From: Clostridia bacterium
GTDB lineage: Bacteria; Bacillota; Clostridia; Acetivibrionales; STF1-152
Length of the DNA stretch: 36,159 nucleotides
Assembly: GCA_028280575.1 (NCBI GenBank)
Contig: JANQLN010000008.1
Span: 1-36,159 of the forward strand
Direction of reading: 5' to 3'
Part shown: in pieces, positions 2,956 through 32,093 of the stretch
Layout: each line of letters opens with the position of its first letter
How positions within the stretch are numbered: position 1 is the stretch's first letter
Notes under the pieces: generated by a model
Databases searched by the model: none
What the model was told of the DNA's origin: nothing
Seen by the model: only the letters and a program-made list of their open reading frames with translations
Made by a program: the position numbers and the translations under genes

Positions 2956-3213
2956 ATGGGGTATTTTTCAACACTTTATAAATCAGAGCTTCCACATCGA
3001 GCTGTTGCTGTTTATATGTACTTGTATGATCGTGCTGATAAAGACGGGAAATGTTATCCTTCAATTGGTACCATTGCTAAGGAGCTTAAACTCTCCCGAA
3101 GTACGGTTAAACGAGCCATCACAGACCTTGAAACAATGGGAAATATTCGTAAGGAAAAGAGATATCGTGAAAATGGAGGTAAAAGCAGCAACATGTATTA
3201 TGTGAAGCTCTAA
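2956..3213 (+). CDS. Helix-turn-helix protein (HTH_36 type), C-terminal tail lost to in-frame stop
   Basis: An 85-residue protein starting at ATG behind TTAAGGAGG. It carries a winged helix-turn-helix (YPSIGTIAKELKLSRSTVKRAITDLETMG, about 35-63) as in replication-initiator-like or ICE regulatory proteins that follow virD4. After the TAA at 3211-3213 the same frame stays open for 41 more codons and reads like protein (NYSTVHSELCSELPTLRYN). Relatives often end in such repeated V-H/N-x-E-L motifs, so the gene is probably a truncated or readthrough allele. The DNA-binding domain itself is intact. Its target and role are unknown. Confidence 0.75.
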   Translation: MGYFSTLYKSELPHRAVAVYMYLYDRADKDGKCYPSIGTIAKELKLSRSTVKRAITDLETMGNIRKEKRYRENGGKSSNMYYVKL

Positions 3214-3588: not shown

Positions 3589-4240
3589 TTTTTGAACAAA
3601 TGACTTTAGTGAAAAAGACAATTTGAACAAAGTCATATTTCGACAAAAATAAAATTTGTTATATATAACGTCATTATTATGACTTTTTTAAGGTGAGGGA
3701 TGTGTTTAATAAATGAAAAAGATTTAAAATAGCACAGATATATGCCAGGGTTGGCTTCTCAGAACCAGATTGCTTTCCAACTTTATGGAGAGGTTACCCT
3801 TTAAAATCAAATATTTTTCTCATAGGCAAAAAAGCCGCAATTTGTTTCGTACAAATTGCGGCTTTTCTATTGACAATAACTGACTATTTCCGACTTCTAG
3901 CTTGTCAAAAACAACTTTATTTTGCTAAAAAAAAACAAATCCTGCTTTTACAGTTTAATAAGAAAAAAAAACTTTATTTTTATAAATCTTTATATGGAAA
4001 AATTTTCATATACCAACAGATAAAAATCTCGGAATTTTATGCCCATAAAAAAGACGATCTTTTATTACAAAAAGCTTTGAATGAGTTCGGTCATAGTAAT
4101 GTCATTACGTCTCTCTTTTTGAATGCAGAAATGGACAAGCTCAGTTTTATTAGTTTGTTTAGGTATTCAATTGGATGTCGTTCCCCTCCCTTGTTCTTCA
4201 TTTTTCGGATTTAAAAAACCTTGAAATGGAGGACAAGTCA
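3589..4240 (+). other. Non-coding / degenerate gap before the sigma-like gene
   Basis: Apart from the terminator at 3830-3866 I see no supported gene in this AT-rich stretch. An open frame at 3870-4214 is lysine-, phenylalanine- and tyrosine-rich, lacks a ribosome binding site, begins inside the terminator tail and has no recognisable motif, so I do not call it. Confidence 0.5.
3830..3866 (+). terminator. Strong 16-bp hairpin terminator (bidirectional)
   Basis: AAAAGCCGCAATTTGT and ACAAATTGCGGCTTTT are perfect complements around the loop TTCGT, with an A-run on one side and a T-rich tail on the other. It can stop transcription from either direction. Confidence 0.85.
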
Positions 4241-4657
4241 ATGGAAAAAAATAAAGGGAAATACACATTAATTGTTGGTAAAAAACGAATTGAAGTAAGT
4301 AAAGAAATTTATAAAGCTTACTACAAATGCAGAAATAGGGAAAGGTATCTTGATAAACTGGCAAAAGAAAAAAATATATCCTTTGAGGCATGCAGTGAAA
4401 AAGGAATACAGCTAGAGTATTTGCTTGCATCTATGCAGGAATCATTAGAGGACAGTATCATTATGAAAGAAACGACTATCAAAATGCTCCAAAGTCTTAA
4501 GCAATTGGATGAAAATGAAAAATGGCTTGTAGATGCTTTGTACTACAGAGGTAAAAGTGAGTACCAAGTAGCTTCTCAACTTGGAATTAGCCGCCAAGGA
4601 GTTCATAAACGTATAATAAAAATACTCGCCAAGTTAAAAAATCTTATGGAAATATAA
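4241..4657 (+). CDS. Sigma-70-like (region 4) ICE regulator
   Basis: A 138-residue protein starting at the ATG behind ATGGAGGACAAGTCA; an in-frame ATG at 4175 has no ribosome binding site. The N-terminus (KYTLIVGKKRIEVSKEIYKAYYK) is typical of the sigma-like regulators of clostridial conjugative transposons. The C-terminus has a sigma region 4-like helix-turn-helix (SEYQVASQLGISRQGVHKRIIKILAKLKNLM, about 106-136). It probably controls transcription of element genes. The last 66 nt and the terminator are duplicated at 6880-7001. Confidence 0.82.
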   Translation: MEKNKGKYTLIVGKKRIEVSKEIYKAYYKCRNRERYLDKLAKEKNISFEACSEKGIQLEYLLASMQESLEDSIIMKETTIKMLQSLKQLDENEKWLVDALYYRGKSEYQVASQLGISRQGVHKRIIKILAKLKNLMEI

Positions 4658-5634: not shown

Positions 5635-6192
5635 TTATCTATATATATTTTTATACTTGATAGTAATAGGATTAACTTTTGCTGCATCAGGATATATGTA
5701 GATAATTTCTCTGCCTTTTTTTCTAGCGTATGCGATAAGCTGTGTGGCAGGCTCTATGTGTGGTATAGCTTCGCTGTCATAGATTGCGATCAGGATGTCG
5801 GCATGATTAACAAGGTACTTACCACATCGCTTATGACAGCCCTTGGAATAATGGGTGCCGATCATTATAATGCCGCAACTTTTTTCATGGATATAAAAAT
5901 AACGTTCTCGCAATTCTGGAGTCCATTTTTTCGCATGATCCTCATAAGGCAGCACACAAAAAAGCCGCAACTGCTTATGCTGTTGCATGAGTTGAAGAAC
6001 CAGTTCAGCTCCCCACATGGAAGCTCCTACCTCACAATCGGTATAAAAGTCCGTAACCCCTTCTTCATAAAGAGAGAGAATTTGAAGGTGTAAGGCATTT
6101 TTGATACGGATACACATTTCATCATCTTCATCATAGCCGAATGGGAACCGCAAAGGGTGGTGCCCCACAAACGCACAAGATAGATTATTCAT
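5635..6192 (-). CDS. SLOG family protein (DUF1273/YpsA-like)
   Basis: A 185-residue protein with a Rossmann-like SLOG fold of the DUF1273 type: N-terminal CAFVGHHPLRFPFGYDEDDE, then TDFYTDCEVGASMWGAELVLQL (about 45-68), a central KKWTPELRERYFYI, and YLVNHADILIAIYDS near the C-terminus. SLOG proteins bind nucleotides or related ligands. In conjugative elements they recur next to XRE regulators, but their substrate is not established. The usual GVDMW motif reads GASMW here. The start is supported by a GGAGG site in the divergent region shared with the XRE gene. Confidence 0.82.
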   Translation of the reverse strand: MNNLSCAFVGHHPLRFPFGYDEDDEMCIRIKNALHLQILSLYEEGVTDFYTDCEVGASMWGAELVLQLMQQHKQLRLFCVLPYEDHAKKWTPELRERYFYIHEKSCGIIMIGTHYSKGCHKRCGKYLVNHADILIAIYDSEAIPHIEPATQLIAYARKKGREIIYIYPDAAKVNPITIKYKNIYR

Positions 6193-6305: not shown

Positions 6306-6656
6306 ATGGAATTGAATTATAAGGCAATAGGCACACGTATAAAAAATGTGCGATCGAAAATAGGTATAAATCAGGAACGTCTAGCGGAACTGGCCGGACT
6401 GTCTGTAACACACACCAGCCACATTGAAACCGGCAACACCAAGGTGAGTCTTCCGGCACTGGTGAAGATTGCAAATGCCCTGTGTGTGTCGTTGGACGAG
6501 CTTGTGTGTGACAGTTTATTAAAGTCCCGTGCTGTTTTTGAGGATGAGCTTTCAGAAATTCTAAACGATTGCATGGAACATGAAATCAGGATAATCGTGG
6601 ATATGGCAAAAGCATTGAAGTTAAGTATGAGGGAAAGACTGAGAGGAAGGATATAG
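6306..6656 (+). CDS. XRE-family transcriptional regulator
   Basis: A 116-residue protein with a classic N-terminal Cro/C1 helix-turn-helix: IGTRIKNVRSKIGINQERLAELAGLSVTHTSHIETGNTKVSLPALVKIANAL (about 7-60), followed by a helical C-terminal part that may dimerise. It begins at ATG after a GAGGACGGTG-type ribosome binding site. Divergence from the SLOG gene suggests local autoregulation. It resembles regulators carried by Tn1549-like elements; the target is inferred only from position. Confidence 0.85.
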   Translation: MELNYKAIGTRIKNVRSKIGINQERLAELAGLSVTHTSHIETGNTKVSLPALVKIANALCVSLDELVCDSLLKSRAVFEDELSEILNDCMEHEIRIIVDMAKALKLSMRERLRGRI

Positions 6657-7603: not shown

Positions 7604-7723
7604 CTAGAGGATATTGGTTACAGCATAAAAATAAAGTTATTGTCCGCTATCAATAAGGAGAGTGTATGGCTGCGCCTGATTGTTAATGGTAAACCGATCT
7701 CGGTAAGGCTCACAGATTGGTAA
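7604..7723 (+). pseudogene. Short coding remnant without start codon
   Basis: An open stretch of 39 codons reads like a natural protein tail (KIKLLSAINKESVWLRLI, then VNGKPISVRLTDW) but has no ATG, GTG or TTG near its beginning and no ribosome binding site. It is probably a remnant of a small element gene. I do not recognise the family. Confidence 0.3.
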
Positions 7724-7782
7724 TAGGACGTTCCTGTTGTTTCATAAAATGAAATAGCGGGATTGCCGAAAGGAGGGAGTGA

Positions 7783-7992
7783 ATGAGAAAAAATCATGTT
7801 CAAAGCATCATCATACATATGCCTCATGATATGGACTTTCACGCCCTCTCCGACAAAGTAAACGGGTTTCACGCCGAAGTGATAGAACGAAGGCTCAATC
7901 AATCAAATCTAACGATAGAAGAGAAGCTTGCCGTTATAGATAAAATTATCGAAAGTCTAAAGTCAAGGGAATCGGGCGGTGTCATCAAATAA
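7783..7992 (+). CDS. Small hypothetical ICE protein
   Basis: A 69-residue protein starting at ATG with an AAAGGAGGG site 6 nt upstream. The sequence HMPHDMDFHALSDKVNGFHAEVIERRL followed by LTIEEKLAVIDKIIESLKSRE is helical and charged. Small proteins of this style sit just before the large recombinase gene in some clostridial elements; that link is from memory and not certain. No recombinase follows here; instead the end of the element and feoB are reached. Its last 30 nt overlap the convergent XRE gene. Confidence 0.6.
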   Translation: MRKNHVQSIIIHMPHDMDFHALSDKVNGFHAEVIERRLNQSNLTIEEKLAVIDKIIESLKSRESGGVIK

Positions 7993-8199
7993 GTGTTTGT
8001 AGCGCCTCCATATGTGATATGGGGGCTTTGCTTGTTTTTGCTCCCAGCTTCTTAAAGTAAAATACTTTACTCCCATTAAGGCCGCTAACTCTTCCTGTTT
8101 TAGATTGTGCTCTTTACGATATAACTTTATTTTTTCTGCATAGTCATTGTAACAATTGAGTTCAAGGTTCAATTCGGCTGTTTCTTCTTTATCAACCAT
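7963..8199 (-). CDS. Small XRE-type helix-turn-helix protein at element boundary
   Basis: A 78-residue protein with a helix-turn-helix: YAEKIKLYRKEHNLKQEELAALMGVKYFTLRSWEQKQAKPP (about 20-62). The chosen ATG (8197-8199) begins MVDKEE; the frame stays open further upstream only because it runs into feoB sequence. The gene is the last of the element before the feoB junction, so its promoter would lie in or next to the attachment site. It overlaps the 3' end of the convergent 69-residue gene. Its role, possibly regulation of excision genes, is inferred. Confidence 0.7.
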   Translation of the reverse strand: MVDKEETAELNLELNCYNDYAEKIKLYRKEHNLKQEELAALMGVKYFTLRSWEQKQAKPPYHIWRRYKHLFDDTARFP

Positions 8200-8211
8200 G
8201 GAGAACAATTT

Positions 8212-8970
8212 TGTTTCTCTTTGTGTGGTGGTGCATTCCCTACCCTGATAGCTATCATTGCCATGTTCTTTGCAGGGGTTGTTGCAGGTCCTTTCCAATC
8301 GGTTTTTTCCACACTCTTGCTAACGGGAGTTATTGTTCTGGGTGTTATAATGACACTGTTAATTTCAAAAATTCTGTCCAAAACCATATTAAAAGGGCTT
8401 CCTTCATCCTTTACCCTGGAGCTTCCTCCTTACCGGAAGCCCCAAATAGGAAGGGTTATAGTAAGGTCAATATTAGACAGGACATTATTTGTGCTGGGCC
8501 GCGCTGTTTTGGTAGCAGCGCCTGCCGGTGTTATAATATGGATTCTGGCAAATATTCAAGTGGGAGATTTAAGCCTTTTAACCCACTGTGCAGACTTTTT
8601 GGATCCCCTTGCAAGGCTGATTGGCCTGGATGGTTATATTTTAATGGCTTTCATACTCGGCTTTCCGGCAAATGAAATTGTTGTACCCATTATTATCATG
8701 AGTTACATGGCTACAGGAGGTATGCTTGAGCTTGACAGCCTCAATGAATTGAGAGAATTGCTGGTTTCTAACGGTTGGACCTGGCTTACGGCAGTTTGTG
8801 TCATGCTGTTTTCCCTAATGCATTGGCCCTGCGGCACAACATGCCTGACAATAAAAAAAGAATCCCAAAGCTGGAAATGGACCCTGGTTTCATTCCTCGT
8901 ACCAACTGTAGCAGGTATTGTAATTTGTTTTATCTTCGCAAACCTTGTCCGTCTTCTGGGCCTGGTATGA
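8212..8970 (+). pseudogene. feoB: FeoB ferrous iron transporter, C-terminal fragment
   Basis: About 250 residues match the C-terminal gate/transport region of Firmicutes FeoB: FPTLIAIIAMFFAG, then SKILSKTILKGLPSSFTLELPPYR, DRTLFVLGRAV, ILGFPANEIVVPIII and MHWPCGTTCLTIKKE, with several hydrophobic membrane segments. The GTPase domain and first half of the transporter are absent. Homology begins where family members read F-V-P-C-N-G-R-F-P-T; here it is F-S-L-C-G-G-A-F-P-T. The only start is a TTG (8221) without a ribosome binding site, so the fragment is probably not functional. The break coincides with the end of the mobile element. Confidence 0.9.
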
Positions 8971-23049: not shown

Positions 23050-23190
23050 GCACTCATATCACTTATTTAAACACATTAATCAAAACTTATCCAAAGCTCT
23101 TAAGCATTACTTATTAGGAAACCACATCTATTTCCCCATGTCTTGAGTAAATAAAATAATCTTTAACTTACACAAAATTAAACTTAATTG

Positions 23191-23219
23191 TTGCATTTTT
23201 ATGCAAAAGTGTGTATAAT
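23191..23219 (+). promoter_or_regulatory. argC promoter with ARG-box-like operator
   Basis: TTGCAT (-35) and TATAAT (-10) are separated by 17 nt. TTGCATTTTTATGCAA (23191-23206), a palindrome with a T4 centre, overlaps the -35 box. This resembles the 18-bp ARG box (TGAAT-N4-ATTCA) with GCAT in place of GAAT. About 100 nt of leader follow before argC. Confidence 0.75.
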
Positions 23220-23322
23220 TATAAAATATTTTTTTAGTATCGGCTTAAATTATTATACATTAAATAAATTTGTTATTAAACAGGTAATATATACTAACAG
23301 CAATAAAGATGGAGGTTTTCAC

Positions 23323-24363
23323 ATGATAAACGTAGGAATTATCGGTGCAACGGGATATGTGGGTATTGAAATCGCAAGGATATTGTCGGCCCATCCCGGT
23401 TTTAAGATAACGTCCGCGGTATCCCAAAGCTTTGCCGGGAAAAGGATTTCCGATGTGTACCCCGCCTTAAATGGCATACTTGACCTGGAGCTGGAAAGTT
23501 TGTCTATTGAAAAAATTTGTGCAAATACAGATTTTTTCATAACAGCACTTCCACATGGAGTCTCGGGTAAAATTATACCGGAACTTGCGCGGAGGGGAAA
23601 GAGAATAATAGATCACAGTGCTGATTTCAGGTACAGAAATACCGGTATATATGAAAAATGGTACAAAGCAAAACATCAAATGCCCGAGCTCAATGAGCTG
23701 GCTGTATACGGCCTTCCTGAGCTTTACAGGGAAAAGATAAAAAGTGCGCGGATAACAGCCAATCCCGGGTGCTATCCCACTGCATCAATTTTGGGAATAG
23801 CTCCTTTGCTGGCTGAAAAAGTGATCTCAACGGAAGGAATAATTGTAGACGCAGCTTCCGGGATATCAGGAGCCGGACGTAAAACCGACCTGCCATATCA
23901 ATACTGCGAGGCCTCAGAAAATTTTAAGGCATATGGAATTGCCGTTCACAGGCATACATCAGAGATTGAGCAGGAAATGTCCCTGCTGGCAGGAAAAGAA
24001 ATCCTGGTTTCATTTACACCCCATTTACTTCCCATGAAAAGAGGGCTTCTTGCAACTATATATGCCGGCCTTGAGGGCAGATACTCCACAGGAAAGCTGC
24101 TTGACTTATATAAAACCTTTTACAGGGATGAGTTTTTCGTAAGGATACTGAAAGAGGGTATGTTTCCTGAAACCAGGTATACAAGCGGTTCAAATTTTAT
24201 AGATATAGGTCTTGCTGTTGACGAAAGGTTAAACAGGGTTGTAATAATTTCGTCAATTGACAACCTGGGAAAAGGAGCGGCCTCACAGGCAGTACAATGC
24301 CTGAATATAATGAACGGGCTGCCGGAAAATGCCGGTATTGAAAGAGCGGGGATGTTTATATAA
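23323..24363 (+). CDS. argC: N-acetyl-gamma-glutamyl-phosphate reductase
   Basis: It catalyses NADPH-dependent reduction of N-acetylglutamyl phosphate to the semialdehyde, the third step of arginine synthesis. The 346-residue protein starts at MINVGIIGATGYVG behind GATGGAGG; an in-frame start at 23188 lies upstream of the promoter. The nucleotide-binding motif is GATGYVGIEIARIL, the active-site cysteine lies in ANPGCYPTASILG, and FTPHLLPMKRGLLATIY and GKGAASQAVQCLNIMNGL are typical. It is first in the arg cluster, and its promoter carries the operator. Confidence 0.96.
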   Translation: MINVGIIGATGYVGIEIARILSAHPGFKITSAVSQSFAGKRISDVYPALNGILDLELESLSIEKICANTDFFITALPHGVSGKIIPELARRGKRIIDHSADFRYRNTGIYEKWYKAKHQMPELNELAVYGLPELYREKIKSARITANPGCYPTASILGIAPLLAEKVISTEGIIVDAASGISGAGRKTDLPYQYCEASENFKAYGIAVHRHTSEIEQEMSLLAGKEILVSFTPHLLPMKRGLLATIYAGLEGRYSTGKLLDLYKTFYRDEFFVRILKEGMFPETRYTSGSNFIDIGLAVDERLNRVVIISSIDNLGKGAASQAVQCLNIMNGLPENAGIERAGMFI

Positions 24364-24372
24364 CTGGAAAAA

Positions 24373-24436
24373 AGAGAACAGAATAGCTTGACTGTAGAAA
24401 ACAGGGTATTATCAAGTATCTGGCTCCCTGTTCTCT
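24373..24436 (+). promoter_or_regulatory. Hairpin between argC and argB
   Basis: AGAGAACAG (24373-24381) pairs perfectly with CTGTTCTCT (24428-24436), with an alternative inner pairing ACAGGG/CCCTGT. No T-run follows, and argB starts 16 nt later. It could be a processing or attenuation element, or a scar where argJ is found in other genomes. Confidence 0.5.
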
Positions 24437-24452
24437 GGAACGGAGGTTTATT

Positions 24453-25355
24453 ATGGAAACATTGATCAAAAAGGCAAAAATATTAATAGAAGCACTTCCT
24501 TATATACAAAAGCTCAACGGGAAAACCGTTGTAATAAAATATGGCGGCAATGCAATGGTAAATGATGAGCTGAAAAACTTCGTTATGGAGGATATTACCC
24601 TTCTTAAATACATAGGGGTAAACCCTGTAGTTGTTCACGGAGGGGGACCCGATATAACAAGGGCCCTTGAGAAATATGGTATCAAAACACGATTCATTAA
24701 CGGATTAAGAGTCACCGACGCACAAACAATGTCCGTTGCACAAATGGTTCTTATAGGCAAGACCAACAAGGAAATAGTTTCAATGCTCAACCAAAAAGGC
24801 GGCAAAGGAATCGGACTTAGCGGTATTGACGGAAGCTTTATAGAATGTGAAAAATATAAGACCATAGTTGGCGGCCAGGAAACGGATATTGGTTTTGTGG
24901 GAAAAATAACCAAAATAAATTCAAAGCTTATAGAAATACTGGCAAAGGATGAATACATACCTGTAATTGCTCCAATAGGTGTTGGGAAAGACGGGCAAAG
25001 CTATAATATCAACGCAGATACGGCAGCAAGTGAAATTGCGGCGGCTCTCAAAGCAGAAAAGCTTATGCTGCTCACAGATGTTGAAGGTGTCAAATCAGAT
25101 GTGGATAAAAACACTATAATACCTGCTTTGACTGCTGAAGAAGTCAACAAGCTGATAAAAAAAGGAGTTATCAGCGGAGGCATGATTCCAAAAGTCCTAG
25201 GGTGTGTAGATGCGGCAAAAAGAGGGGTGGGAAGAACTCATATTGTAGATGGAAGAATACCCCATTGCATTTTGCTTGAAATATTCACTAATAAAGGAAT
25301 CGGGACAATGATAATGAATGAAAGGATATTGTACCATGAGAATGAAAATTTATAG
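24453..25355 (+). CDS. argB: Acetylglutamate kinase
   Basis: It phosphorylates N-acetylglutamate with ATP, the second arginine step. At 300 residues it has the amino-acid-kinase motifs VIKYGGNAM (ATP site), [17 protein letters not shown] (substrate glycine loop), [20 protein letters not shown] and LLTDVEGV, and ends with GGMIPK and [15 protein letters not shown]. The N-terminus [20 protein letters not shown] is the helix that makes arginine-sensitive hexamers in ArgB, so feedback inhibition by arginine is likely. It starts at ATG with GGAGG at 6 nt. It follows argC after 89 nt with no argJ between. Confidence 0.97.
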
Positions 25356-25405
25356 CAGCGTTATGTATTTTTCTAAATTATTAAATATAATTTAATTTCC
25401 TGGTG

Positions 25406-25434
25406 TTGCATTTTTATGCATCGTAATGTATAAT
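25406..25434 (+). promoter_or_regulatory. argD promoter with ARG-box-like operator
   Basis: TTGCAT (-35) and TATAAT (-10) are separated by 17 nt. TTGCATTTTTATGCAT (25406-25421) overlaps the -35 box exactly as at argC. It is a second, internal promoter of the cluster under the same control. Confidence 0.75.
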
Positions 25435-25459
25435 TATAAAAAAGCCTGGGAGTGATTTA

Positions 25460-26656
25460 ATGGAACTGGAAAAAGTGGTCAAAATGGATAAAAAGTATTA
25501 CATGAATACATTTGGGGACAGGACTCCTGTTTGTTTTGATTATGGCAAGGGTATTAAGCTGTGGGATGCGAACGGCCAAAAGTATTTTGATTTCCTGGGC
25601 GGTATTGCAGTAAATATACTGGGGCACGCACACCCGGCTCTTGTCAGGGCAATTTGCAAACAGGCCGAAAAGCTTATACATTGCTCCAGCCTGTACTACA
25701 TAAAAACCCAAGCAAAACTGGCTAAAGTACTGGCGGAAAATTCGTGTACAAACCGGGTATTTTTCTGCAACAGCGGCGCGGAAGCCAATGAAGGGGCAAT
25801 CAAGCTGGCACGCCTTTATTATAGGAAAAAGGGAATTGATAATAAATATGAAATTATTACTTTAAAAAAATCCTTTCATGGCAGGACCATGACTACTTTG
25901 TCGGCAACAGGGCAGGAAAAGTATCAAAAACCTTTAACTCCGCTAACTCCCGGCTTTAAGCATGTTGAAATAAACAATATAAATGAACTGGAGAATGAAA
26001 TATCTGAAAACACCTGCGCAGTAATGCTTGAACCGATCCAGGGGGAAAGCGGGGTAAACCCGCTTAGCGTTGAGTTTATGAAAGGTGTGCGCAGGCTTTG
26101 TGATGAAAAAGACCTTTTGCTTGTTTTAGATGAGATTCAAACCGGAATCGGCCGTACGGGAAAGCTTTTTGGTTATGAGCACTTTGGCATTGAGCCTGAC
26201 ATATTCACCCTGGCAAAAGCCCTGGGAGGAGGATTTCCAATAGGAGCGGTCTGCGCAAAGGAAGAAGCTGCCGCAGCATTCGAGCCTGGAGACCATGGAA
26301 GCACATTTGGGGGTAATCCTCTTGCATGTGCCGCTGCTCTTTCGGTGATGGAAACAATAGAAAAGGAGGAGCTCCTTGCAAATTGCACCAAAATGGGAGA
26401 ATATTTTTTTGAAAAACTGGAGGGCCTTAAGGATAAACATTCTCTAATAGGTGAAATCAGAGGGAAGGGCCTTATGATTGGAATTGAGCTGAATGAGGAA
26501 AGGGCGGCCACGGTTAAGGACAAATGCTTAAAACAGGGGTACTTGGTTGGCTCAGTGGGAACAGGCATTATACGTATGCTTCCACCTCTTATAGTTACCA
26601 AAAAAAATATTGACGGGATGATAGATGTATTGGACGCGGCACTAGTGGCCTGTTAA
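25460..26656 (+). CDS. argD: Acetylornithine aminotransferase
   Basis: A PLP-dependent class III aminotransferase that makes N-acetylornithine from the semialdehyde and glutamate. The 398-residue protein has FLGGIAVNILGHAHPAL near the N-terminus, NSGAEANEGAIKLARLY (PLP phosphate contact), LVLDEIQTGIGRTGK, the PLP lysine in TLAKALGGGFPIGA (about 254) and HGSTFGGNPLACAAAL. The ATG follows GGGAGTG. Its own promoter and operator lie just upstream. Some enzymes of this family also act on succinyl-diaminopimelate. Confidence 0.96.
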   Translation: MELEKVVKMDKKYYMNTFGDRTPVCFDYGKGIKLWDANGQKYFDFLGGIAVNILGHAHPALVRAICKQAEKLIHCSSLYYIKTQAKLAKVLAENSCTNRVFFCNSGAEANEGAIKLARLYYRKKGIDNKYEIITLKKSFHGRTMTTLSATGQEKYQKPLTPLTPGFKHVEINNINELENEISENTCAVMLEPIQGESGVNPLSVEFMKGVRRLCDEKDLLLVLDEIQTGIGRTGKLFGYEHFGIEPDIFTLAKALGGGFPIGAVCAKEEAAAAFEPGDHGSTFGGNPLACAAALSVMETIEKEELLANCTKMGEYFFEKLEGLKDKHSLIGEIRGKGLMIGIELNEERAATVKDKCLKQGYLVGSVGTGIIRMLPPLIVTKKNIDGMIDVLDAALVAC

Positions 26657-26684
26657 GTTTATAATTGTGGGTTGGATTAATAGC

Positions 26685-26712
26685 TTTACATTTTGGCATG
26701 ATGCTGTATAAT
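26685..26712 (+). promoter_or_regulatory. carA promoter with degenerate ARG-box-like site
   Basis: TTTACA and TATAAT are separated by 16 nt. TTACATTTTGGCATGA (26686-26701) resembles the argC and argD operators with several mismatches, and sits in the same place over the -35 box. Regulation by the same repressor is plausible but weaker. Confidence 0.55.
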
Positions 26713-26743
26713 GTTATAGAAAAAACTTGAGGAGAGAAAACAA

Positions 26744-27814
26744 ATGAAAGCTGTACTTGTTTTGGAAGACGGTACCTACTTTACCGGGGAATCATTTGGG
26801 GAAGACGGCGAAACAATGGGAGAAGTTGTATTTAACACGTGTATGACAGGATACCAGGAAATTTCAACGGATCCGTCATATAATGGACAGATTGTGACAA
26901 TGACCTATCCTTTAATAGGTAATTACGGCTTTAATACGGATGATAACGAATCATACAAAACCCATGTTGAAGGTTTTATAGTAAAAGAGCTGTGTGATTC
27001 TCCAAACAACTGGCGAAACAGTATTCATCCCGATGAATACTTCAAAAAAAATAATATTGTGGGTATAAAAGGTATAGACACAAGGGCATTGACACAGCAT
27101 ATCCGCCAATTCGGCAGTATGTTCGGAATTATTTCAACACTAAGCGGCAACGTTGATATTTTACTTGAAAAGCTCGAAAGCAGAAAAAAGATTTCCAGGA
27201 ATCTGGTCATGGAGGTCTCAACAAAAGAAACCATCCACAAGCCGGCAAAGGGTAAAAAAGTGGCATTAATGGATTTTGGTGTGAAATATAATATTATGCG
27301 TTCCCTGGAACAGAGGGGCTGTGATACTTTTATCCTTCCCGCCGATACCTCTTGCGAAGAGATATTGAAATTCAATCCTGACGGAATTCTTCTTTCAAAC
27401 GGCCCCGGAGACCCAAGGGACCTTCCCGCCATAATTGAAAATATTAAAAAGCTGATAGGAATAAGACCCATATTTGGAATATGCCTAGGCCATCAGCTGC
27501 TGGGACTTGCACTGGGATTGGATATATATAAGCTAAAATTTGGACATCATGGCGGTAACCACCCTGTCAAGGACCTTAATACGGGACGCTGTTATATAAC
27601 ATCGCAAAACCACAATTATGCTATTGATACCAGGATGAGCCCGGATATCAAGGACAATATAACAATAACCCATATGAATGTCAACGATAATACGGTTGAA
27701 GGCTTCAAGCATAATACTCTGCCGGTACTCAGCATACAATATCATCCGGAGGCAGCTCCCGGCCCCGAGGATTCAGATTACATCTTCGACCAGTTTATGG
27801 AAATGATGGGCTGA
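26744..27814 (+). CDS. carA: Carbamoyl-phosphate synthase small subunit
   Basis: The glutaminase subunit that supplies ammonia to CarB. The 356-residue protein has an N-terminal domain starting KAVLVLEDGTYFTGESFG and a C-terminal class I amidotransferase domain. The nucleophile cysteine lies in FGICLGHQLLGLALG and the catalytic His/Glu in SIQYHPEAAPGPED; the oxyanion loop LLSNGPGDPRD is present. ATG follows GAGGAGAG. It is placed in the arg cluster, which together with the operator-like site suggests control by arginine rather than pyrimidines; a single enzyme could serve both. Confidence 0.97.
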   Translation: MKAVLVLEDGTYFTGESFGEDGETMGEVVFNTCMTGYQEISTDPSYNGQIVTMTYPLIGNYGFNTDDNESYKTHVEGFIVKELCDSPNNWRNSIHPDEYFKKNNIVGIKGIDTRALTQHIRQFGSMFGIISTLSGNVDILLEKLESRKKISRNLVMEVSTKETIHKPAKGKKVALMDFGVKYNIMRSLEQRGCDTFILPADTSCEEILKFNPDGILLSNGPGDPRDLPAIIENIKKLIGIRPIFGICLGHQLLGLALGLDIYKLKFGHHGGNHPVKDLNTGRCYITSQNHNYAIDTRMSPDIKDNITITHMNVNDNTVEGFKHNTLPVLSIQYHPEAAPGPEDSDYIFDQFMEMMG

Positions 27815-27895
27815 ATTCAGGTTGGCAGTTTAAAAGCTTAAACAAAAAATAGCATTTCGGGCTTTCTATTGCCTGTTATCTGGAATGGAGGTTAT

Positions 27896-30800
27896 ATGCC
27901 AATACGTAAAGACATAAAAAAAGCCCTGGTGATCGGATCAGGCCCCATAATTATAGGCCAGGCCGCTGAGTTTGATTACTCCGGTACTCAGGCTTGCAGG
28001 TCCTTGAGAGAAGAGGGCTTGGAAGTCATACTCATAAACAGCAATCCTGCAACAATTATGACCGACAGTGAAACAGCGGATAAAATATATATTGAACCGA
28101 TAACCCTGGATTTTGTTAAAAAAATCATACTAAAGGAAAAGCCTGATGGAATACTTGCATCCCTCGGGGGACAGACAGGCCTTAACATGGCTGTCCAACT
28201 GTCTTTAGACGGTATACTGGATGAGATGGGTATTGAGCTTCTTGGTACCTCCCTGCAGTCTATTGAAAAAGCCGAAGACAGGGAGCTTTTTAAAAAAACA
28301 ATGCAGGAAATAGATGAAAAAATAGCTGTAAGCTCTATTGTAAAAAGCCTGGAAGACGGAATTAGATTTACGGAAAAAATCGGTTTTCCCATAATCATCC
28401 GTCCCGCATATACACTTGGCGGTTCAGGCGGAGGCATTGCAAAGGATATGGACGAGTTCAAGTACATCTGCAAAACAGGCCTTAAACTCAGTATGATAAA
28501 TCAGGTCCTGGTTGAACAAAGCCTTGCAGGATGGAAGGAAATTGAATACGAGGTAATGCGTGACGCTGCGGATAACTGTATTGTCGTCTGTAATATGGAA
28601 AATGTTGACCCCGTTGGTATTCACACCGGTGACAGCATAGTCGTTGCGCCGAGCCAGACACTTTCAGACGTGGAATACCAATTGCTTCGGACAGCTTCAT
28701 TGAAAATAATCAGGGCACTTGATATAAAGGGAGGCTGCAATATTCAATTTGCACTTAATCCACACAGCTATGAATATGTTGTAATAGAAGTAAACCCGCG
28801 TGTAAGCCGTTCCAGTGCTCTTGCCTCAAAAGCAACAGGCTATCCCATTGCCAGGGTAGCTGCCAAAATTGCGGTAGGGCTCAATCTTGACGAAATCAAA
28901 AATTCCGTAACTAAGAATACATACGCCTGTTTTGAGCCTTCACTTGATTATATTGTAACCAAGGTTCCCCGCTGGCCGTTTGACAAATTTACGACTGCAG
29001 ACAGGAAGCTTGGTACTCAGATGAAGGCAACCGGCGAAGTTATGGCGATAGGAAGGACATTTGAAGAATCCCTCCTGAAAGCTATTGATTCACTGGATGT
29101 AAAGCTTAATTACCAGTTGGGGCTTAAGCTTTTTGACAACAAGTCAAGGGATGAACTCTTGGAAACTATCAAAACACCCGGAGACGAACACATATTTGCA
29201 ATATGCAAGGCCCTTCAAAAAGGCGTGCCTGTGGAAAAAATAACGGATATAACCAAGATGGATATCTTTTTTGTCAAAAAGCTTCAAAACATAGTTAAAG
29301 TTGCACAGGAAGTTAAAAATGCGGGAATAGCATGGCTTGATTATGAATTATACCTAAAGGCAAAGAAGACAGGTTTTGGTGATTCATATATTGCAAATCT
29401 TGTTAATGTACCCCTCGATACTATTTTAGAGCTTAAGGACAAATTCCCTATTGACCCCGTATACAAAATTGTTGACACTTGTGCAGGCGAGTTTGAAGCT
29501 GTAACGCCATATTATTACTCAACATATGAGTCAAAGGATGAAGTTGTCGTTTCCGGAAGGAAAAAGGTACTGGTAATAGGCTCCGGGCCTATCAGGATAG
29601 GGCAGGGCATCGAGTTTGATTACTGCAGCGTACATTCTGCAAGTACCCTTAAAGCATTAGGATATGAATCAATAATAATAAACAACAACCCTGAAACGGT
29701 CAGTACCGATTTCGATACTTCAGACAAGCTGTATTTTGAACCCCTTACCAAAGAATGCGTCCTTGATGTAATTCACAAGGAAAAACCCCTTGGCATAGTT
29801 GTTCAATTCGGAGGACAGACTGCCATAAATCTTGCTGAAACCCTTAATAAAGAGGGCGTAAGAATATTGGGCACATCTGTTGAAAGCATAGATATAGCAG
29901 AGGACAGGGACAAGTTTTTAAAGCTTTTGGATGAACTGGATATACCAATCCCAAAAGGTGATACCGCCTTTTCCTTTGAACAGGCCAGGCAGATAGCAAA
30001 CAGAATCGGCTATCCTGTGCTGGTAAGGCCATCCTATGTTTTAGGCGGGAGGGCAATGGAAATAGTTTATGACGACACAATGCTTGAAGAATACATGGAC
30101 TTAGCGGTTGAAATATCTTCAAAGCATCCCGTACTGATTGACGAGTATATAACGGGCAAGGAGATTGAAGTAGACGGCATATGCGACGGCAGCGACGTTC
30201 TGATTCCGGCAATAATGGAGCACATTGAAAGGGCAGGTGTGCATTCGGGGGACAGTATCGCAGTATATCCTCCAAGAACGCTTGATGAAGGCATTAAGAA
30301 CACAATAGTCCAATATACCAATAAACTTGCAAAAGCATTAAAGGTTATCGGCCTGTTTAATATTCAATTTGTAATGGATGAAAACAACAAGGTGTACGTA
30401 ATAGAAGTAAACCCAAGAGCAAGCCGTACAATACCTGTTATCAGTAAAATCACAGGCATACCAATGGTTAATGTGGCAACAAAGCTGCTGATGGGAGATA
30501 CGCTTTTAAACTTGGGCTATAAGCCCGGCCTTGTAAAAGAATCAAAATTTATTGCTGTAAAAGCCCCTGTTTTTTCGTTTTCCAAGCTCAAAACAGTTGA
30601 TACTTTCTTAGGTCCTGAAATGAAATCAACAGGAGAGGTAATGGGTGTGGACCAAGATTATCATTTTGCACTCTATAAGGCTCTTCTTGCCTCAGGCCTT
30701 AATATCCCGTCTGACGGCAATGTTTTGCTTTCTGTTGCAAACAGGGATAAAAAAGACTGTATTGAAGCTGCAAACAGGCTTTCAACATTGGGATTTAATT

Positions 30801-31117
30801 TATTTGCTACAGAGGACACATATTTTTATCTCAACGGAGTAGGTATAGAAGTAGAACTGGTACCAAATGATGATATTTTACCCGGCTTAAAAAACGACCG
30901 GTTCAACCTGGTAATAAATACTCCTACAAAGGGTAAGATACCAGAGCATTTAGGCTTCATGATAAGAAGAACGGCAATGGAATTCAATATACCCTGCCTG
31001 ACATCCCTTGATACTACAAAAGCAGTGCTGGAAGTTCTTGCACATATAATTAACAAACAGGATACGGAGGTATATGCGCTGGACGAATATTCGGAGTGGG
31101 ACGGTTTGACAGTGTGA
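27896..31117 (+). CDS. carB: Carbamoyl-phosphate synthase large subunit
   Basis: It makes carbamoyl phosphate from bicarbonate, ammonia and two ATP. The 1073-residue protein is full length for the family. It has two homologous halves, each with a pre-ATP-grasp motif ([40 protein letters not shown]) and ATP-grasp loops ([61 protein letters not shown]). The C-terminal allosteric domain follows (about 930-1073). The start [16 protein letters not shown] lies behind TGGAGG; the in-frame start at 27869 precedes the ribosome binding site. The gap to carA is 81 nt. Confidence 0.97.
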
Positions 31118-31169
31118 CAGCTTGGGGCCGGGACGGTTTGGCAAAACTGCGGAGTGGGAGGATATTTAT

Positions 31170-32093
31170 ATGGATCATTTAATCAGTATAGCAAAGCTTG
31201 ATTTGATGGATATTGAGAAGATTTTTAAGCTTTCAAAAAAGCTGAAAAACCTGTTAAAAAACGGTGAAAAACACCATTACCTTGATGGAAAGACCCTGGG
31301 GATGATTTTTACAAAAAGCTCTACCAGAACAAGGGTTTCATTTGAAACAGGTATTTATCAGCTGGGTGGAAAGTCTATTTTCTTAAATTCAAACGATATC
31401 CAGCTTGGACGCGGTGAAACTATTTGTGATACGGCAAAAGTCCTTTCCAGGTATGTTGACGGTATCATGATAAGGACCTATAAGCACAGTGATGCGGAGG
31501 ATCTGGCCAGATATGGCAGTATACCTGTCATTAACGGACTGACCGACCTGCTTCATCCCTGCCAGGTACTGGCGGACCTGTTTACCATATATGAGTACAA
31601 AGGCCCTTTGAAAGGGCTTAAGCTGGCATATATTGGTGATGGAAATAATGTTGCCAATTCACTCCTTAACGGTTGCAGCAAAGTGGGTATGGATATTTCA
31701 ATTGCATCACCTGAAAGATATGGCTGCAATCCCCGGATCATAGACAATGCCAAAAAGCAGTCGGCACAATCAGGTTCAAAGGTTGTAATAACTAAAGATC
31801 CTGTTGAAGCTATCAGGGACGCCGACGCGGTCTATACAGATACCTGGGTAAGTATGGGACAGGAGGATGAAAAGGAAAAAAGGCTTAGGCTTTTTATGCC
31901 ATACCGGATTGACTCCAAGCTTTTTTCATATGCAAAGGATAATGCAGTTTTTCTCCATTGCTTACCTGCATACAGGGGGTTTGAAATGACTGAAGAAATA
32001 ATTGACGGTCCCAATTCAGTTGTATTTGACGAAGCAGAAAACAGGCTGCATGTACAAAAAGCTATCATGATAATGACTATGGAAAGGGGTTAG
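31170..32093 (+). CDS. argF: Ornithine carbamoyltransferase
   Basis: It transfers carbamoyl from carbamoyl phosphate to ornithine, giving citrulline. The 307-residue protein has the carbamoyl-phosphate loop STRTRVSFE (about 51-59), HPCQVLADLFTI (about 130-141), the ornithine-binding motif DTWVSMGQE and the active-site HCLPAYRG near the C-terminus. The start MDHLISIAKLDLMD follows GGGAGG at 7-8 nt. It directly follows carB, so both substrates are made in one transcript. Argininosuccinate synthase and lyase genes are not in the window. Confidence 0.97.
   Translation: MDHLISIAKLDLMDIEKIFKLSKKLKNLLKNGEKHHYLDGKTLGMIFTKSSTRTRVSFETGIYQLGGKSIFLNSNDIQLGRGETICDTAKVLSRYVDGIMIRTYKHSDAEDLARYGSIPVINGLTDLLHPCQVLADLFTIYEYKGPLKGLKLAYIGDGNNVANSLLNGCSKVGMDISIASPERYGCNPRIIDNAKKQSAQSGSKVVITKDPVEAIRDADAVYTDTWVSMGQEDEKEKRLRLFMPYRIDSKLFSYAKDNAVFLHCLPAYRGFEMTEEIIDGPNSVVFDEAENRLHVQKAIMIMTMERG

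Follow-up and report, generated by a model that had tools for sequence, protein, structure and literature searches.

The 36,159-nucleotide window analysed here, which is the whole of contig C11 from a 143-contig draft genome of 4.35 Mb, contains what is best explained as the right end of an element that integrated into feoB through site-specific recombination and that is, in this case, probably also conjugative. It is a single instance of something wider, namely a branch of the skin recombinase family that is specific to feoB and has exchangeable cargo. In the account that we favor, a large serine recombinase (LSR) encoded at the other end of the element, on contig C122, would recombine a palindromic attP (arm-TT-arm) with an attB located at the first two bases, TT, of the codon for Phe in the NGRFPT motif of FeoB, and integration would split feoB into two open halves. 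As regards the element and the chemistry of its recombination, we assign this account a probability of roughly 85%. A small protein encoded near the junction, a putative recombination directionality factor (RDF), would then act together with the LSR to recombine attL with attR, excising the element and rejoining feoB precisely.

A feoB gene divided between two contigs

In the window, feoB-derived DNA starts with TTC (8236-8238), which encodes the Phe of the NGR|F-P-T motif, and the DNA to the left of 8236 belongs to the element. As described in the original prediction, ICE genes give way here to the C-terminal region of FeoB: the 3' half of the gene, which begins with the last base of that Phe codon and ends at a normal stop (8238-8970, plus strand), matches Pfam FeoB_C (E=4e-16) and Gate (E=3e-14). 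The sequence of the interval 8195-8240, within which the junction had been placed, is also as described, but the crossover core, the dinucleotide TT at 8236-8237 that forms the first two bases of the Phe codon and is common to attL on C122 and attR in the window, lies at the right edge of that interval rather than in its middle. The attR element arm TTGTTTCTCTTTGTGTGGTGGTGCA (8211-8235, plus strand) fits the consensus for arms of the family, AAAGTTGCCcTTTGgntGGTGGCGCA, and pairs as an inverted copy with the C122 arm, with 17 of 26 positions identical. A near-palindrome with a one-base bulge, GAGAACAA/TTGTTTCTC (8201-8219), had been suggested as part of the attachment site. It exists, and its right half (8211-8219) overlaps the conserved outer attP arm, but its left half falls outside the conserved site, and it was ruled out as the attachment core because crossover takes place 17 nt further right; the actual symmetry of the att site relates the arm at 8211-8235 to its counterpart at the element's opposite end. 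Production of the C half as a separate protein from an internal start was likewise rejected. The only in-frame start is a TTG five codons upstream that lacks a ribosome site, in agreement with the earlier claim that the fragment has no usable start, and the feoB C halves of two relatives (L103 and L076) have no in-frame start. Nucleotide matches to the junction were sought in plasmids, and none were found.

Uninterrupted feoB genes of relatives define the target, and the FeoB of one of them, G005 (a 782-codon open frame), served as the query for a search of the same genome. FeoB residues 1 to about 473-474 were located on contig C122 (75% identical to G005) and residues 466-716 in the window (83% identical), while no intact copy of the split feoB was present. 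On contig C122, genes for a regulator of the DtxR family and feoA accompany the feoB N half, which is followed by a 540-aa LSR that points at feoB and has Resolvase, Recombinase and Zn-ribbon domains, by ArdA proteins, and by CpaB-, ParA- and CpaF-type genes up to the contig end. The proposal that feoB is the integration site thus survives, as the N half lies beside feoA and adjoins the integrase end of an element in the same genome. When positions 4131-5548 of C122 (locus L037) and 8238-8970 of the window are joined via the shared TT, the product is a single 716-codon frame with no internal stop and the junction NGRFPTLIAI, so that, as for skin-like elements, removal of the element would restore the interrupted frame exactly. 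It had also been anticipated that a ferrous-iron importer would be lost unless another copy existed, and a second, intact FeoB of 683 aa (34% identical) is encoded on contig C7. Upstream of feoA on C122 (about 3760-3790), we also observed a palindrome, CTAATAT...ATATTAG, that is conserved in L141 and overlaps a sigma-K-like sequence, AC-N17-CATATATTA; this might serve as an operator of the DtxR type or as a promoter used in sporulation. The sigma-K-like promoter was therefore set aside as evidence: it precedes feoA in 4 of 11 loci, including C122 and L141, and in these two it overlaps the conserved palindrome, which may be an operator.

The remaining genes to the left of the junction are those of an ICE-like element. 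They encode a TOPRIM-domain protein whose 5' end is off the contig (2-853, plus strand; Pfam Toprim_2, E=1e-16), a VirD4/TraG-type coupling protein (1133-2944, plus; T4SS-DNA_transf, E=7e-47) with 36-66% identical counterparts on two plasmids of Oscillospiraceae-type hosts, an HTH_36 protein (2956-3213, plus; HTH_36, E=1e-17), a sigma-70 region 4-like regulator (4175-4657, plus; Sigma70_r4, E=4e-6), a YpsA/SLOG-family protein (5635-6192, minus; YpsA, E=7e-25), and an XRE-type regulator (6306-6656, plus; HTH_3, E=1e-10). With TraG/VirD4 in the window and a CpaF-type ATPase on C122, type IV secretion and coupling genes are present, and the element is probably conjugative, as judged from its gene content. 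Searches of this genome with two relaxase queries, PF03432 and MobP3, gave no match. VirB4 genes occur on contigs C2 and C123, but attempts to link these contigs, or to join C122 to C11 through them, did not succeed. Judging from these two related VirB4-bearing stretches (C2, 1-4504; C123, 1-14510), two or more conjugative elements of the same type are probably present in the genome. Rightward of feoB, the window contains an ordinary arginine/carbamoyl-phosphate cluster at 23188-32093 (putative argC, argB, argD, carA, carB, and argF).

A recombinase family that targets one codon

A contig scan with the C122 recombinase identified 78 loci in named genomes that encode LSR relatives of 34-79% identity. 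In nearly 60 other records, from dozens of gut bacteria, such relatives (about 35-79% identical) lie in feoB at the same Phe codon, and for nearly all members of one LSR clade a feoB half begins no more than about 100 bp past the recombinase stop, always at this codon. The TT core was found at all 68 junctions that were read, 55 on the C side and 13 on the N side, and the flanking arms form one large palindrome, AAAGTTGCCcTTTGgntGGTGGCGCA-TT-(inverted copy). A 2-bp core, an attP with two inverted arms, and no long duplication, as seen here, are the features of an LSR integration system, and integration by the LSR at the TT is almost certain. This recurrence across the recombinase family also argues that the junction in the window is not due to chance. 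In the present genome, as in L098, L104, and L132, the orientation of the entire element is opposite to that in most of the family, so that the recombinase adjoins the N half rather than the C half; because the attP arms are nearly symmetric, it would have to be the TT core that sets the orientation of the element. A search of the open-access literature returned no report of feoB as an integration target.

The cargo differs widely among family members. Elements with both feoB halves on one contig measure 2.7-10.8 kb, and the genes carried include a type I restriction system, malate dehydrogenase with malic enzyme, a beta-galactosidase with an ABC transporter, a BlaR1/M56-like protein, lysine-pathway genes, or almost nothing; the present element is an ICE-like member of the family. 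Other LSR families use a second insertion site in feoB, about 40 codons upstream (ALT|MCMGFGC), as seen in L006/L141 (G031), L025/L142 (G018), L023 (G014), L064, and L132. The insert at this site in G031 carries methionine/cysteine-metabolism-like genes and that in G018 is prophage-like, while L064 and L132 have an insertion at each of the two sites, with a 44-codon piece of feoB left between two elements.

Comparison of recombinase and feoB divergence provided evidence for mobility. The recombinases of L056, L057, and L058 are 98-99% identical (dS about 0.15), whereas the feoB genes in which they reside are only 60-62% identical with saturated dS, and the same pattern holds for L059 and L060 (dS of 0.10 for the recombinase and 1.87 for feoB). 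As near-identical recombinases sit in strongly diverged feoB genes, the insertions at this one codon were independent, demonstrating, at the level of sequence comparison, horizontal transfer of the element family. A circular form was detected in one relative, [Clostridium] aerotolerans DSM 5434, in which contig 28 carries the recombinase, an intact attP, and the putative RDF, and has an exact 95-bp end overlap that closes it into a circle of 14,316 bp. The first 95 bp of contig 27 in this assembly repeat that sequence and end in ...GGTGGCGCATT, after which contig 27 continues as feoB (CCCAACC), forming an attR junction, while contig 28 proceeds after the 95 bp into the other attP arm (TCCACAACC). 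Since the assembly branches exactly after the TT core, integrated and circular forms both appear to have been present in the sequenced DNA, although the circle could be read as a tandem array instead. The attP pattern was absent from 391 genomes of the class, the present one included, and from viral contigs, so that the evidence for a circle comes from this one relative; neither attP nor a circle was assembled in the present genome, for which excision is inferred.

Kinship with the skin system and a putative RDF

The skin recombinase of spore-forming bacteria removes the skin element from a sporulation gene. Within the order to which the present genome belongs, recombinases of 38-40% identity sit between the halves of sigK, with a 62-69-aa protein encoded just upstream, an arrangement recognizable as the skin system. 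The C122 LSR is related to the skin recombinase both in its domains and in belonging to a sister clade of the sigK-inserted LSRs: the feoB clade, which comprised 58 feoB rows together with L068 and L075, two rows that were not scorable as feoB, was separated from the sigK clade with an SH-aLRT of 99.

The most telling part of the window, which was absent from the original prediction, is a gene at 7783-7992 (plus strand) encoding a 69-aa putative RDF. Its family is found in 49 loci, many of them at the end opposite the LSR, or adjoining the LSR in sigK-skin elements. The protein has no curated Pfam match, and a profile of the family reaches the sigK-associated small proteins weakly and in one direction (E 6e-6 to 0.05). 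Based on the position of the family opposite the LSR in many feoB elements and on this weak profile link, the protein is likely to be an RDF. The LSR/RDF pair would then be a feoB-specific sister of the sigK skin pair, and the element a skin-like one whose cargo can be exchanged. In the skin element of C. difficile, the RDF CD1234 is controlled by sigma-E and SpoIIID and is needed for excision (PMC5025042). A small XRE-type HTH regulator (7963-8199, minus strand; Pfam HTH_3) is encoded between the RDF and attR, with homologs at the same place by the RDF in L054 (57% identical) and L071, and may control the RDF or the recombinase.

The putative RDF gene is preceded by a predicted sigma-E-like promoter, TAATAGG-N15-CATAAAAT (7721-7750, plus strand), which conforms to ATA-N17-CATA. 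The mapped sigma-E promoter of C. difficile spoIIID reads ATA-N16-CATATATA (PMC3789822). The motif ATA-N16/17-CATA lies 44-75 nt upstream of the RDF start in 12 of 29 feoB-clade elements, the present one included, and is missing from the other 17; related rows in these counts are not independent, but the positives are spread over several widely separated parts of the recombinase tree. By comparison, 10 of 480 other open reading frames of the same loci (2%) had the motif, and shuffling gave a mean of 0.30 and a maximum of 3 in 2000 shuffles. It was also present in 7 of 20 sigK-associated and other RDFs, a class with a known sigma-E-driven member, and it is kept in the GC-rich members L098, L102, and L111. 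A sigE gene is encoded in the present genome and in nearly all hosts checked, the exceptions being two Melainabacteria bins and the host of L119; L119 has the motif, yet no sigE was found in its host bin, which may be incomplete. The predicted promoter suggests that sigma-E would control the RDF, in which case excision would most likely take place in the sporulating mother cell while the element stays integrated in the forespore chromosome. A C. difficile feoAB operon (CD1518-CD1517) belongs to the sigma-K regulon, with a 20-fold fall in expression in a sigK mutant (PMC3789822).

Role of excision and alternative explanations

The condition of the split gene bears on what excision is for. None of the 55 C halves or 13 N halves read at the Phe-codon site contained a premature stop, and where the host has a single insert both halves of feoB are open. 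In L063 and L097, the C half (dS 1.35), the recombinase (dS 1.5), and the shared malate cargo (dS 1.2-1.7) indicate that element and feoB diverged together, and in a Flavonifractor trio (L103/L105/L129) dS is 0.30-0.46 for the feoB C half and 0.19-0.34 for the recombinase. In the closest pairs of such co-diverging lineages, dN/dS for the C half is 0.07-0.25, and neutral decay would be expected to have produced about 2-7 stops in the C half alone; dN/dS for the N half lies above this range, with values of about 0.45-0.67 for the Flavonifractor trio. The halves could also stay intact if the element is repeatedly lost and enters again. The malate dehydrogenase and malic enzyme genes lie inside feoB in several genera (L063, L097, L119, and L072) and their synonymous divergence is close to saturation, as though this cargo had long been inherited vertically within an intervening element.

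These data weigh on an alternative to which we give close to an even chance, namely that an ordinary ICE occupies a tolerated hot spot, where it has inactivated a redundant feoB, excises for transfer only, and has an RDF promoter that was inherited from a skin-like ancestor or is otherwise used. The recombination chemistry would be the same as in our preferred account, and only the role of excision would differ. At least one further full-length FeoB was found in all 21 hosts checked (20 relatives and the present genome), so the insertion may simply be tolerated. In the hosts of L059, L060, L061, and L074, feoB has been cut at three sites (about residues 50, 432, and 473) and is dead, as its N-terminal pieces carry stops; from these hosts and the further FeoB copies, it follows that the gene is plainly redundant and sometimes lost. 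Since the C pieces of these same hosts are open, intact C halves are weakened as proof of function. Consistent with a tolerated hot spot, the N part of feoB is also cut in C. aerotolerans, with the middle not found, other LSRs enter the gene at the ALT|MCMGFGC codon, horizontal transfer is clear, and such an LSR occurs in only about 1% of genomes of the class. Against this alternative, the old, vertical-looking lineages (L063/L097/L119/L072 and the Flavonifractor trio) are stop-free in the feoB halves read and have the low C-half dN/dS given above, and the RDF promoter motif is strongly enriched. The third cut lies near the P-loop (about residue 50-59) and was seen in G433, G434, G436, and G439 (hosts of L060, L059, L061, and L074, respectively) as well as at the end of C. 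aerotolerans contig C10 (L171); in G433, one feoB lies in pieces over about 54 kb, with partial duplications and stop codons.

It is also conceivable, but improbable, that the conjugative genes of the window and the LSR of C122 derive from different, nested or tandem, insertions in feoB, given that the contigs are unjoined, the middle of the element is unassembled, and double and triple feoB insertions are known in relatives. Against this, attL on C122 and attR in the window have a common TT core, matching inverted arms, and feoB halves that end at the same codon, and RDF and LSR are partners at opposite ends in many single-contig elements. Furthermore, plasmid CP141730 of Oscillospiraceae bacterium MB08-C2-2 has the same gene orders as C122 (the T4SS genes CpaB, ParA-like, and CpaF) and the window (traG, then HTH). 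CP141730 differs in being a replicating plasmid with a MobP3 relaxase, for which a search of the present genome gave no match. Very likely, C122 and the window are the two ends of one element. An assembly chimera, with an artefactual junction and feoB intact in the organism, is highly implausible even for a 143-contig draft with the feoB halves on different contigs, because both junctions were assembled independently and agree to the base with the att structure in nearly 60 records, including the complete chromosome of Anaerocolumna sp. AGMB13025 (L121), and no intact feoB copy is present.

Returning to the preferred account, we tentatively propose, at somewhat less than even odds, that excision is a developmental rearrangement in which sigma-E of the mother cell would switch on the RDF, the LSR would excise the element, and the rejoined feoB would restore FeoB for late sporulation, while the spore inherits the element; the slot would also serve as a dock for exchangeable cargo, whether ICEs, restriction systems, or metabolic genes. 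The C. difficile skin element (LSR CD1231 and RDF CD1234 in sigK; PMC5025042) is similar in splitting a chromosomal gene, in having an LSR of the same family at one end and a small RDF-like protein with a sigma-E-type promoter motif, and in that precise excision would restore the frame. In contrast, the feoB elements target feoB rather than sigK, place the RDF across attP from the LSR, carry highly variable cargo that includes an ICE, and have undergone wide horizontal transfer, and their excision during sporulation is predicted from the promoter. The gin element in gerE of Bacillus cereus (GirC/GirX; PMC5595907) and SP-beta in spsM (PMC4191935) are also gene-intervening elements with an LSR and an RDF, and gin, like the feoB element, is not a prophage; however, their targets are classical sporulation genes and their hosts Bacilli, whereas feoB is a transporter gene. 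Diverse LSRs that share one attB at a prolyl isomerase site (Durrant et al. 2022, PMC10083194) similarly converge on a conserved site in a coding gene, but the text examined names no feoB target and describes neither a developmental RDF promoter nor gene restoration.

With these elements, an iron-transport gene joins the genes split by skin-like elements, beyond the classical sporulation regulators, and, across Clostridia, one recombinase family holds to a single codon even as its cargo is exchanged. The family also provides a set of natural combinations of LSR, attP, attB, and putative RDF, with a largely palindromic attP and elements in both orientations. It makes testable the old question of whether intervening elements persist by regulating their host or by hiding in redundant genes. 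If the developmental proposal is true, ferrous-iron import by the split FeoB would be confined to the dying mother cell.
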